Made by a program: the position numbers and the translations under genes | The notes under the pieces: generated by a model | Told to the model about the DNA's origin: nothing | The model's database searches: none | What the model saw: the letters and a program-made list of their open reading frames with translations, nothing else | Part shown: positions 9,423-30,933 of the stretch, one piece after another | Layout of the letters: each line of letters starts with the position of its first letter | Position numbering within the stretch: the stretch's first letter is position 1 | Virus record (IMG/VR): IMGVR_UViG_3300027816_000144 | Coordinates: 1 to 49,977 of that record | Reading direction: 5' to 3' (one strand) | From: a virus | DNA length: 49,977 nt

Positions 9423-10376
9423 TTAGTAAGAGTTGTTTCGAGCTTCTTGCGCATATCGCTTAATCATCTTGGATCGCTTATCGGGATCATCCCAAAAGCC
9501 AGCATCCTTCATTGCGCGCACTTGTTCTGGTTTCAGTACAAATGTGTTCCTGTTGGTGCTTCCGTTGACGCTTTCGCGACCAGAACTTGTTACAACACTC
9601 CTTGGTCTCTTAGTAGACGAACGTACGTCCGTGGTGTCATTGTACTTGTGTGGCAAGTACTTATGCAAGCGATTATCGAGTTCATTCCAGTAATCAGGTG
9701 AGGTTGGATCCCAACCCTCTGAAACCAGAGTCTCGTCAATTTGCTTTGCAATCTTGGAATCGGTGTCCCGAGCGTTCGGGTCGTACCAATCATTCTTTTC
9801 CATCCAGTTCGCCGCCAAGCGTTGCAGGCGAGGATCTGGGACGTTTCCTTGGGACTGGCGAGGCTCTACAGCCGCCTTCTTGAAGTTGGACAAAGCTTCC
9901 ATCTGGCGACGGGCTTCGTACATCATCTCTTGGGCTTCTGCCATGGCGTGACCGTCAGAAGCGCTTGCCGCCTCAGAGATCTTCATCTTGGCGTACTGCA
10001 AGCGAAGTTCTTGGTCTTCAATAGCCTTGTCGATACGGGCTAGGTCAGCAGAGTGGGTTTTGCGCTCCACAACGGACAAACGCTCCATCAATTCTTGGTT
10101 CTTGCGTTCCAAGAGCTGGAGTTTCATGTCCTTCTCTACGCCTGTCTTCTTAGCCAAATCCCGCTTGGCACGACGCTTTTCACGACGTGCGCGTTGGTAT
10201 TCAGTCTCGTCTTCAGGAATTACGTCGTCGTCAGCTTGGTCAGCAGAGCCGCCAGCCGCCATGCGGTCGTCTTCCTGTTCATCAGGGGATTCAATGCTGT
10301 CAGGAAGGTCAATAACGGCTGAACCGTCTGCTTCCTCGGTGACAACAATCTTGTCAAGTTCGTTTTCTGTGGTCAT
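9423..10376 (-). CDS. Capsid scaffold protein
   Basis: A 317-aa protein with scaffold architecture. The N-terminal 60 residues are highly acidic (EEADGSAVIDLPDSIESPDE). A charged coiled coil follows (QRARREKRRAKRDLAKK and LQLLERKNQELMERLSVVER, extending to about residue 165). The C-terminal third is more globular (LQRLAANWMEKNDWYDPNAR) and ends with a helix containing KPEQVRAMKDAGFWDDP. It overlaps the GroES-like gene by 4 nt (ATGA) and lies two genes before capsid, the usual order. It would direct capsid assembly and then leave or be degraded. No protease domain is visible in it. Assigned from composition, coiled coil and position. Confidence 0.75.
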   Translation of the reverse strand: MTTENELDKIVVTEEADGSAVIDLPDSIESPDEQEDDRMAAGGSADQADDDVIPEDETEYQRARREKRRAKRDLAKKTGVEKDMKLQLLERKNQELMERLSVVERKTHSADLARIDKAIEDQELRLQYAKMKISEAASASDGHAMAEAQEMMYEARRQMEALSNFKKAAVEPRQSQGNVPDPRLQRLAANWMEKNDWYDPNARDTDSKIAKQIDETLVSEGWDPTSPDYWNELDNRLHKYLPHKYNDTTDVRSSTKRPRSVVTSSGRESVNGSTNRNTFVLKPEQVRAMKDAGFWDDPDKRSKMIKRYAQEARNNSY

Positions 10377-10807
10377 AAGAATGCTTTCATAGCTAGGGGA
10401 TCACCAATGACTTTGGCAATGATTTCGTGGTCATTCAGGATCATGAACAGGGCTGGATCTTCGTGATCGTCCTGTCCTTCAACCTTAACTTCCCAACGAT
10501 CTCCGCCCCATTTGGGGACTCGGATGTAATCACCGACCTCGCACCACGAGCCTTCAGGCCAGCCTTGCATGGTGTCACGGTTTTTGAATGCGAGAGGGCC
10601 AACTTCGATGACTTTTGCCACCATGTTGTTCCACTTCTCGGTCTCTTTGGTCTCTTCTACCAAAATGATCCCTGCGCTTGTCGTTTTCTGTTTTGTGCGA
10701 CGTAATTGCACCAAAATTCGACCACCTAATGGCTTAGCACCCGGGCTAACAGCGGGGAATGCCCACTTCACTTCAGCGTTTTCCAACACTTCGGGGTTAT
10801 CGCTCAT
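10373..10807 (-). CDS. Phage GroES-like co-chaperonin
   Basis: A 144-aa protein with a Cpn10 beta-barrel pattern. LGGRILVQLRR matches the first strand (host GroES: IRPLHDRVIVKR). TSAGIILVEETKE corresponds to the mobile loop that docks on GroEL, with the hydrophobic tripeptide IIL. AKVIEVGPLAF matches the following strand, and WCEVGDYIRVPKWGGDRWEV the next barrel strands. It is longer than bacterial GroES (about 97 aa), mainly through an N-terminal 25-residue extension and an acidic insertion (VEGQDDHEDPA). It sits between a 63-aa gene and the scaffold, in the capsid cassette. The natural role is to reprogram host GroEL for folding of the phage capsid protein, as T4 gp31 does. Interaction with host GroEL is inference. 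Confidence 0.82.
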   Translation of the reverse strand: MSDNPEVLENAEVKWAFPAVSPGAKPLGGRILVQLRRTKQKTTSAGIILVEETKETEKWNNMVAKVIEVGPLAFKNRDTMQGWPEGSWCEVGDYIRVPKWGGDRWEVKVEGQDDHEDPALFMILNDHEIIAKVIGDPLAMKAFL

Positions 10808-10988
10808 CTTCTTCTTTGTCCTTTAACATTTTGTTAATGAGATCGAGGGTTTCCTGCAATCCCAAGTTTGTGCCGACCGTGCGTTGGTACGCCTCCCATG
10901 ACGCGACGTTTCCAGCCGCTAGGGAAGAAGCTATTTCAGCTTGACGCACCTTGATTGCGCCGATCAGATCACCCAAATTGAATAACAT
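10797..10988 (-). CDS. Small helical protein upstream of the GroES-like gene
   Basis: A 63-aa mostly helical protein (LGDLIGAIKVRQAEIASSLA, then WEAYQRTVGTNLGLQETLDL and a charged tail INKMLKDKEEDER). Its ATG overlaps the stop of the 51-aa gene by one base (TAATG), and its end overlaps the GroES-like start by 11 nt, so all three are translationally coupled. Similar small proteins accompany portal and scaffold cassettes in environmental phages. No function is known. Confidence 0.6.
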   Translation of the reverse strand: MLFNLGDLIGAIKVRQAEIASSLAAGNVASWEAYQRTVGTNLGLQETLDLINKMLKDKEEDER

Positions 10989-24988: not shown

Positions 24989-25369
24989 TTAACCTGCTTG
25001 CTTCTCAGCAAAAACACGCTTAGCTTCTGTGCCTTGAGCTACATACTCATCAGAGCCGTAAACTGGATCAACTTCATCCCAAAATGTAGGAGCTAAGGCT
25101 TTACCAGACGCAAGAGCGGCATTAACACGAGCGGCTAAACGCTCTGCTTTAGCAGAAGCTTCTTCGCGAAGATCTGGGAAGCAAACGTCGCCCGTCTCTT
25201 CGCAAAAAACTTGCTGAGTGCCGTTAAAAGTAACAGCGTGACGGAAACGACGACCAGCTTCGTTCTCGACAACAACATAAAAGCTATCGGCAATAAAAGG
25301 GCGACCGTCGCAAGCGTAACCTGCGTTGTACAGATCAGATGCGACATATGCTGTGTAAGATTTGTTCAT
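24989..25369 (-). CDS. 126-aa early-region hypothetical protein
   Basis: I choose the ATG at 25369, preceded by AAGGAAATCAAA; an upstream TTG frame is not needed. The product starts MNKSYTAYVASDLYNAGYAC, continues SFYVVVENEAGRRFRHAVTF and FCEETGDVCFPDLREEASAK, and ends DPVYGSDEYVAQGTEAKR. The beta N-terminal half followed by a helix and the W-x-E-x-x-P-V-Y-G-S block occurs in other phage genomes without known function. It is the first gene behind the repeated start element at 25386-25427, so it is likely under repressor control. Confidence 0.65.
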   Translation of the reverse strand: MNKSYTAYVASDLYNAGYACDGRPFIADSFYVVVENEAGRRFRHAVTFNGTQQVFCEETGDVCFPDLREEASAKAERLAARVNAALASGKALAPTFWDEVDPVYGSDEYVAQGTEAKRVFAEKQAG

Positions 25370-25385
25370 TTTGATTTCCTTCAAG

Positions 25386-25427
25386 TAACCGCCTTATTGG
25401 CGTGATTGCATCTTAACATGAAATTAA
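25386..25427 (-). promoter_or_regulatory. Repeated start element, copy 2: operator, extended -10, 5' hairpin
   Basis: On the minus strand, in order: operator TTAATTTCATGTTAA (25427-25413); the extended -10 TGTTAAGAT overlapping its right half; 10 nt; the hairpin CGCC-AATAA-GGCG (25402-25390); then GTTAC and the ribosome binding site of the 126-aa gene. The predicted +1 is the A at 25403, immediately before the hairpin. The operator overlaps the stop codon of the upstream 121-aa gene. Near-identical copies are at 26466-26504 (minus) and 30881-30918 (plus). Confidence 0.7.
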
Positions 25428-25789
25428 AACGATTCAACAGTAGGGACTTTCCCTAATGCCATTTGTTCTTGGTAAGCCTTGATGATGAAGTCGTCCATCG
25501 CAGTGTCAACGCAGATCTCGGTGTATCCCGAGAGCATAGAGCCAAGGTGCCTGCGCTCACGGATCTCCCGCGGGATGCCGGGGAGCTTGTACAGGGTGCT
25601 GAACTCACGGGCTCGGTTGATCAGCCCGTTGTTGTACAGATCGTAGTAGCAGTTCTGCGCCTTGCGAAAACGCTCTAGGTGCTTGTTTTGCTTTTTGCCT
25701 TGGGGTATTTCACCCATGGCAGGGATAAGCGCCTGTAGGGGCGTTACGAGCGCTTGGTAGGCGCCTTGTTCGTTCCAGTACTTTGCCAT
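25424..25789 (-). CDS. 121-aa early-region hypothetical protein
   Basis: Start at the ATG at 25789, preceded by AAGGAG 6 nt away; a longer frame reaching 26041 would overlap the 104-aa gene and has no such site. Product: MAKYWNEQGAYQALVTPLQA, then PQGKKQNKHLERFRKAQNCY, NRAREFSTLYKLPG and a helical end with EICVDTAMDDFIIKAYQEQM. It is a helical, basic protein of no recognised family. Its stop codon lies inside the operator of start element copy 2, so its 3' end and the next promoter overlap. Confidence 0.6.
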   Translation of the reverse strand: MAKYWNEQGAYQALVTPLQALIPAMGEIPQGKKQNKHLERFRKAQNCYYDLYNNGLINRAREFSTLYKLPGIPREIRERRHLGSMLSGYTEICVDTAMDDFIIKAYQEQMALGKVPTVESF

Positions 25790-26150: not shown

Positions 26151-26441
26151 TTAGTTTGACAGTGCCTTTGTTTCGGCGGCGAGGATGTTGTAGGTAACCT
26201 TTGTGTGCTTAGCAATCAGCTCAGCAGGAGCGTTCAGCTCTTTGGCAACGGCAGACCATGCTGTCGTTTTCTTTTCTGGTGTGTGCTTGATGGTGGTCAC
26301 GTACATAGTGCCAGCGTAAGAACCTTGACCCAACATTTTGAGTTGGTTTTTGAGGTCATCTGCCTGCTCTTGCAAAGCGGCAATTTGGTCTTCGATCAAA
26401 CCGAGTTGGTCAACGATCTTGAGAGCGGTAGTAGTAGTCAT
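26151..26441 (-). CDS. 96-aa coiled-coil early protein
   Basis: Start at ATG 26441 with AAGGAAATTGGAA before it; the TTG two codons earlier is less likely. Residues 8-40 form a coiled coil (LKIVDQLGLIEDQIAALQEQ, then ADDLKNQLKMLGQG). After this comes SYAGTMYVTTIKHTPEKKTT, a beta hairpin with Lys-rich loop, and a helical end WSAVAKELNAPAELIAKHTK. The coiled coil plus small beta domain resembles host-range or nuclease-inhibitor type phage proteins, but I cannot name a family. It is the first gene after start element copy 3. Confidence 0.6.
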   Translation of the reverse strand: MTTTTALKIVDQLGLIEDQIAALQEQADDLKNQLKMLGQGSYAGTMYVTTIKHTPEKKTTAWSAVAKELNAPAELIAKHTKVTYNILAAETKALSN

Positions 26442-26465
26442 TTCCAATTTCCTTTTTCATGTAAC

Positions 26466-26504
26466 CTGCTTGTTGCAGTGATTGGGATCTTAACACGAAG
26501 TTAA
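26466..26504 (-). promoter_or_regulatory. Repeated start element, copy 3: operator, extended -10, 5' hairpin
   Basis: On the minus strand: operator TTAACTTCGTGTTAA (26504-26490), a perfect TTAAC-N5-GTTAA inverted repeat; extended -10 TGTTAAGAT overlapping its right half; 11 nt; hairpin CTGC-AACAA-GCAG (26478-26466); GTTAC; ribosome binding site of the 96-aa gene. The stem sequence differs from the other two copies but pairs just as well. The expected +1 is the A at 26479 next to the stem. It lies just downstream of the HNH gene. Confidence 0.72.
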
Positions 26505-26523
26505 AACGGTTTGGGAATCTTTT

Positions 26524-30590: not shown

Positions 30591-30797
30591 CTACACGAAA
30601 AACAGATCTGGACGCAAGTCTTTTCTTGTGACCAAACCTTGTGTTGCTTTTTCAATCTTAACCGCCAACGCGGCTGATGCAGTTCTACGCTCATGAATGA
30701 GCAGAGACATCCATGTCAGGCTGATGCCCAGATACTCTGCCATCTCACCTCTTGCGCCCAACGGCTCCGTCGAAAAGTACTCTTGCAATGTCATCAT
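30591..30797 (-). CDS. Cro/YdaS-like transcriptional repressor
   Basis: A 68-aa protein from ATG 30797, preceded by AAGGA at 7 nt. TLQEYFSTEPLGARGEMAEY, then LGISLTWMSLLIHERRTASA and LAVKIEKATQGLVTRKDLRP form a five-helix Cro/C1-type helix-turn-helix: helix 2 GARGEMAEYLG, recognition helix LTWMSLLIHERR, and the end V-T-R-K-D-L-R-P-D seen in Cro-like YdaS proteins. It lies next to an operator (30824-30838) and divergent from the rightward operon, the classic arrangement of a phage control switch. No separate CI-like or integrase gene was found in the window. Confidence 0.78.
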   Translation of the reverse strand: MMTLQEYFSTEPLGARGEMAEYLGISLTWMSLLIHERRTASAALAVKIEKATQGLVTRKDLRPDLFFV

Positions 30798-30823
30798 TGT
30801 TCTTCCTTGGCGGCAAGTATACA

Positions 30824-30838
30824 TTAACTTTAAATTAA
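30824..30838. promoter_or_regulatory. Operator copy 1, upstream of the repressor gene
   Basis: TTAACTTTAAATTAA, matching the TTAA-N7-TTAA pattern of the three start elements. It lies just upstream of a TATACT -10 box (minus strand, 30822-30817) for the repressor gene, so binding would block its own promoter. It also contains the 13-bp palindrome CTTTAAATTAAAG (30828-30840). Autoregulation is the obvious reading. Confidence 0.65.
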
Positions 30839-30880
30839 AGATACCCCTACGTTTCACTCGGGAATGTATTGTGTTGGTTT

Positions 30881-30918
30881 TTAATTCGGTGTTAAGATTC
30901 GTGTACGCCGATACGGCG
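30881..30918 (+). promoter_or_regulatory. Repeated start element, copy 1: rightward early promoter with 5' hairpin
   Basis: In order on the plus strand: operator TTAATTCGGTGTTAA (30881-30895), extended -10 TGTTAAGAT, 10 nt, hairpin CGCC-GATAC-GGCG (30906-30918), then GTTA and AAGGAG before the TTG start at 30934. TTGTGT at 30869 with an 18-nt spacer is a weak -35. The predicted +1 is A30905, directly before the stem. The layout is the same as in the two minus-strand copies. Confidence 0.72.
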
Positions 30919-30933
30919 GTTAAGGAGAATCAA

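Follow-up and report, generated by a model that had tools for sequence, protein, structure and literature searches.

The YdaS protein of CP-933P, a cryptic prophage of E. coli O157:H7, binds the divergent promoter region beside its own gene, as shown by EMSA and DNase I footprints (PMC8630535). The ydaS gene is divergent from another operon, palindromic operators overlap both promoters, and YdaS also represses a second promoter elsewhere, PL933P. The operators are 18-bp palindromes with the half-site GTTTAGTAA, they are common to YdaS and the CI-like PaaR2 of this lambdoid prophage, and YdaS has a CII-like partner, YdaT (PMC8630535). Phage lambda Cro, with OR and OL and their operator triplets, is likewise a small helix-turn-helix protein that acts at early promoters and at its own promoter. 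In the stoperator systems of L5-type mycobacteriophages (PMC9283540), one phage repressor has several dispersed sites, the solved repressor is a monomer on asymmetric sites, and repressors of this type also terminate elongation. The PeSL cassettes of T4-type phages (Arbiol 2010 and Comeau 2014, as cited in PMC4503421) place a repeated promoter and stem-loop before early accessory genes.

Here we analyzed a window of 49,977 nt (IMG/VR record IMGVR_UViG_3300027816_000144), a linear record of a freshwater phage that is probably several kb short of its ~57-kb relatives. The window encodes a homolog of CP-933P YdaS (PF15943; PDB 8co2 and 8c7k), whose gene is also divergent from another operon and has palindromic sites at both predicted promoters. 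In contrast to CP-933P, the half-site is TTAA with a spacer of seven nucleotides (N7), and two further candidate operators lie at internal promoters. In contrast to lambda, there is a single operator per promoter, and a further difference is that cro comes first in the replication operon; unlike the stoperators, the sites are symmetric and lie at promoters. Of a lambdoid CI/Cro immunity switch, neither a CI-type partner nor an integrase was found in the window, which may be incomplete, or in the relative MW202545 (complete, circular, 57,457 bp), and this sets the locus apart from both CP-933P and lambda.

The 68-aa protein and the TTAA-N7-TTAA sites

The gene of the 68-aa repressor (30591..30797, minus strand) was assigned by Pfam, AlphaFold, and Foldseek. 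Its product matches Pfam YdaS_toxin (PF15943) with an E-value of 1.7e-12 and 47.4 bits against a curated cut-off of 30, it is the only copy in a PF15943 search of the whole record, and it also matches a PHROG transcriptional repressor (8.6e-10). The AlphaFold model has a pLDDT of 94.1, and its helix-turn-helix comprises helix 2 (residues 15-23) and the recognition helix (residues 27-34). The best Foldseek match is the NTD of CP-933P YdaS (8co2; TM 0.86, rmsd 1.1); other top PDB matches are 8c7k and 3bd1 Cro, and Xfaso 1 Cro is among the closest solved structures. The initial annotation had labeled the protein Cro-like, and by Pfam match and predicted fold it is indeed a YdaS-family Cro with a YdaS/Cro helix-turn-helix.

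Exact copies of TTAA-N7-TTAA are present at 25413-25427, 26490-26504, 30824-30838, and 30881-30895, just as the initial annotation had listed them, and a fifth copy absent from that list lies within coding sequence at 10823-10837. The five copies in the whole window compare with 0.57 expected from dinucleotide shuffles, and at least five were reached in 0 of 100 shuffles. Four of them fall inside the 2,964 non-coding bases, where shuffled non-coding DNA gives an expectation of 0.075; the non-coding shuffles held at most two copies, and four were reached in 0 of 3000. The divergent region by itself holds two (shuffle P ~0.0002). An equal frequency in coding DNA had been named beforehand as evidence against a regulon, and the frequencies are far from equal, with four copies in ~3 kb of non-coding DNA versus one in ~47 kb of coding DNA. 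The split follows a hand-made gene map; an automatic longest-ORF coding mask was dropped because spurious antisense ORFs overlay the divergent region. Among spacers of 3-12 nt between TTAA pairs, a spacer of 7 is exceptional, save for spacer 8 with two non-coding copies (5700 and 23364). The pattern described in the initial annotation is confirmed.

In the divergent region, the candidate operator of the cro promoter (30824..30838) is an exact match that sits between the -35 region and a putative extended -10 element, TGTATACT (30816..30823, minus strand), which was read from the sequence and is invariant in relatives. At the rightward early promoter, the exact match at 30881..30895 overlaps with its 3' half-site a putative extended -10 element, TGTTAAGAT (30890..30898, plus strand), and the variants of this element in relatives, TTAGAAT and TTATGAT, still preserve a -10. 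The rightward transcript would begin with a leader hairpin, CGCCG-ATA-CGGCG (30906..30918, plus strand), which is supported by a covariance model and by compensatory stems; the cro-promoter site is an operator only and has no hairpin. In 29 distinct close relatives, the half-sites are conserved at 100% on the cro side and 97% on the rightward side, and the intervening DNA at 79%. The putative divergent early promoters are overlapped or abutted by palindromes that are present, conserved, and switch alleles together. The proposed placement of the sites at -10 boxes also holds at the internal promoters: the 3' half-site overlaps TGTTAAGAT at 25413 and 26490 as it does at 30881, and the 30824 operator abuts TGTATACT. 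The predicted -35 boxes of these promoters are weak, and a consensus promoter scan calls none of them and finds fewer sites than chance.

The coding copy at 10823-10837 is a perfect TTAAC-N5-GTTAA, as is the copy at 26490, so that there are two perfect copies and not one as previously stated. It lies in codons (L-I-N-K-M-L) of a ~62-aa ORF directly upstream of a GroES-like gene, and conservation of the protein motif L-I-N-x-[LM]-L explains its presence at the same codons in relatives. We set it aside as a true operator: it is in codons, it has no -10 or hairpin context, it scores 7.2 bits in the cassette model described below, and G013, a relative with a different Cro helix, has TTAA-N7-TTAA at the same protein position. 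This copy is probably a coding coincidence. The GroES-like co-chaperonin gene itself (10373-10807) stands amid structural genes and is annotated in MW202545 too.

The putative promoter and leader-hairpin cassette

The candidate operator at internal leftward promoter 1 (26490..26504, an exact match) is accompanied by a putative extended -10 element, TGTTAAGAT (26487..26495, minus strand), read from the sequence and from invariant alignment columns, and by a predicted leader hairpin, CTGC-AACAA-GCAG (26466..26478, minus strand), that is 100% paired and has double changes in two pairs. The first gene behind it is an ORF of 96 aa (26151..26441, minus strand), for whose product the profile searches gave no confident family. 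At internal leftward promoter 2, the exact match (25413..25427) shares bases with the stop codon of the gene upstream; the putative extended -10 element, again TGTTAAGAT, is at 25410..25418 (minus strand, from the sequence), and the predicted hairpin, CGCC-AATAA-GGCG, at 25390..25402 (minus strand; from sequence, alignment, and pair counts). An ORF of 126 aa (24989..25369, minus strand) with no function assigned follows. Nearly all close relatives also have the two internal leftward sites in the same place, 2.8-6 kb downstream of cro and always in the same orientation. Directly upstream of the 25413 cassette is an inverted repeat, TAGGGACTTTCCCTA (25441-25455); in several relatives, cassettes have a similar TAGGG..CCCTA repeat before them, which may be a host-factor site or an upstream hairpin.

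Three of the four sites (25413, 26490, and 30881) belong to a longer cassette, a point missed by the initial annotation. This common 62-nt unit consists of the operator with the extended -10 TGTTAAGAT in its 3' half, ~7-8 nt, the hairpin, and GGTTA. A covariance model trained on internal cassettes only scores the two internal cassettes of the window, both of which are among its training sequences, at 75.7 bits (26446-26508) and 77.5 bits (25370-25431). The same model finds the rightward promoter (30877-30933) at 5e-7, and since no rightward cassette was used in training, this match is independent. Across 37 sequences, pairing in the cassette stem is 100%, and double-change cells number 14 versus 2.6 in shuffles. 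The rightward stems in relatives, CGCCG/CGGCG, CGTCG/CGACG, and CGCTG/CAGCG, are all complementary, and the changes are compensatory. The predicted +1 falls at the hairpin or just before it, suggesting a 5'-terminal hairpin that would probably stabilize the transcript.

The two half-sites of the cassette vary differently. In 67 distinct cassettes of close relatives, the 5' half-site is TTAA in all. At the 3' half, the final base can be A, C, G, or T and changes with the -10 (TTAAGAT, TTACAAT, TTAGAAT, and TTATGAT); a few cassettes have an imperfect 3' half-site (TTAC, TTAG, or TTAT). The 5' half-site lies beyond the -10, and a promoter by itself does not account for its invariance. In one relative, G001 (L216, 35500-36200), a gene 16 kb from cro, encoded on the other strand, is preceded by an extra cassette with an operator, a -10, and a different hairpin, a sign that the cassette may travel with genes.

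PeSLs are titled promoter-terminator motifs (cited in PMC4503421), whereas the hairpin here follows the -10 and would sit at the RNA 5' end, and the cassette, unlike PeSLs, has a built-in candidate operator. Terminator features of the PeSL type were not found in the window, where the cassette hairpins have stems of 4-5 bp and no T-run.

Operator alleles and the recognition helix in relatives

An IMG/VR scan provided 80 loci of relatives, and distinct operator alleles were found among them. In group 3 (L046-L048, L051, and L053-L055; Cro identity of 58-66% by tblastn), both the cro operator and internal promoters carry TTGAA-N7-TTCAA, and TTAA-N7-TTAA is absent from the 72.8 kb of this group. 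L041 and MW202545 have a CTAA-N7-TTAG allele, and TTAA-N7-TTAA was found in neither of them. In MW202545, CTAA-N7-TTAG has four copies, all of them lying 30-47 nt ahead of a leftward gene, and the divergent region has CTAA-N7-TTAT. TTAA pairs number 101 in the 335 kb of group 1, a count that is not independent because near-identical contigs are included, and 0 in both group 3 and the CTAA group. TTGAA/TTCAA pairs number 16 in the 72.8 kb of group 3 and four in group 1, and CTAA/TTAG pairs number seven in the 68.9 kb of the CTAA group and four in group 1. For two diverged groups, L042/L043 and L049-L063, no clear operator was resolved.

The recognition-helix residues change with the allele: TTAA goes with T28, S31, and L or I32, TGAA with E28 and K32, and CTAA with G31 and M34. 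The changes are T28E and L32K in group 3, and S31G and I34M in the CTAA group. Positions 28, 31, and 32 correspond to base-contacting positions of lambda Cro. Many further Cro positions differ between the allele groups, and the match of helix and allele is therefore a correlation not isolated from common descent. Indirectly but strongly, the comparison of relatives indicates that all the sites are read by the Cro-like protein. We judge the four-site Cro-like regulon put forward in the initial annotation to be real; as a putative regulon it is supported by footprinting, by joint allele switching, and by the YdaS/Cro homology of the protein.

Candidate early switch, its alternatives, and the cro leader of relatives

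The PF00589 integrase search was negative in 17 records, including the complete MW202545, and positive in 14 of 14 control genomes. No S24 peptidase exceeded the cut-off in the window, possibly incomplete, or in the complete MW202545, and neither has an HTH_3-like match besides Cro; in every record with such a match, it is Cro itself. The terminase is closest to that of MW202545 and more distantly related to those of Caulobacter phages such as RW and KcrB, and a scan of genome contigs for hosts hit a single Burkholderiales MAG contig. Without an integrase or CI-type repressor in the records searched, we favor a timed shut-off of early genes in a lytic phage over lysogeny control as the likeliest role, with the caveat that this linear record is shorter than its ~57-kb relatives.

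We propose, with high confidence, a Cro-only early switch in which a predicted YdaS/Cro dimer on TTAA operators would block four early promoters. The 68-aa protein would bind as a dimer to the 15-bp operators, whose half-sites TTAA...TTAA are one helical turn apart and which overlap or abut the putative -10 of four promoters: the leftward one of the repressor gene itself, the rightward one divergent from it, and two internal leftward ones before small accessory genes. On infection, host RNA polymerase would fire all four promoters together, and the accumulating protein would then sterically keep the polymerase off them, so that the repressor would regulate itself and early expression would be shut off in a timed manner. 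As neither an integrase nor a CI partner was found in the records searched, such a switch would not be one side of a lysis-lysogeny decision. Three of the promoters would also encode a hairpin, probably transcript-stabilizing, that forms the 5' terminus of their RNA.

A different regulator, either a CI-type protein from the unsequenced part or a host factor, might instead read the sites, with the Cro-like protein binding elsewhere. Operators are common to CI and Cro in lambdoid phages, the footprints of PaaR2 and YdaS overlap in CP-933P (PMC8630535), and the window is not a closed genome. However, the complete MW202545 keeps the regulon with no integrase, S24 peptidase, or HTH_3-like match beyond Cro, and allele switching in step with the phage Cro helix is not expected of a host factor; we consider this reading improbable. 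Slightly less probable still is that the motif is a mere part of a conserved promoter, the TGTTAAGAT -10 plus an AT-rich spacer, without operator function. The same extended -10 does lie on the transcribed strand in three of the four sites, and the variation of the 3' half-site always keeps a -10, but the 5' half-site is invariant outside the -10 in the 67 cassettes and elsewhere changes symmetrically with the 3' half (TGAA/TTCA and CTAA/TTAG), and the cro-promoter site, upstream of its -10, is equally invariant. Chance matches in AT-rich intergenic DNA might be suspected from a pattern with only eight fixed bases, one coding copy, and two non-coding copies at spacer 8. The four sites against 0.075 expected in shuffled non-coding DNA make chance a negligible prospect, and the conservation across the 29 distinct divergent regions refutes it.

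Beyond the Cro-only switch itself, we tentatively suggest, at somewhat less than even chances, that Cro-only regulons in lytic freshwater phages spread via a portable cassette (the operator over the extended -10, followed by the RNA 5' hairpin), that newly gained accessory genes arrive under repressor control, and that the TTAA, TGAA, and CTAA alleles are switched regulon-wide with the recognition helix. If this is true, these phages offer a natural series of repressor-operator co-evolution. The alleles provide a testable operator code for a widespread phage repressor family still called a toxin in Pfam, and the three natural protein-operator pairs with multi-site regulons bear on how a repressor changes specificity yet keeps its targets. 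The analysis also points to repressor-timed early shut-off in phages without sign of lysogeny genes.

The cro leader, from the cro promoter to the cro start, of many relatives (L020, L021, L024, L025, L030-L032, L038, and L042; also L086-L206) contains an array in which two kinds of hairpin module, both hypervariable inside, alternate; the window has no such array. The modules are GTTGGTG..CACCAAC and ACACGCATGGGGATTG..CAGTCCCCAGCCGTGT, and no Rfam match was found for them among the loci checked. The end of the ACACGCATGGGGATTG..CAGTCCCCAGCCGTGT module occurs in at least 120 IMG/VR stretches. The interiors, some of them tRNA-like, recur shuffled between contigs, and the whole looks like an undescribed structured-RNA array.
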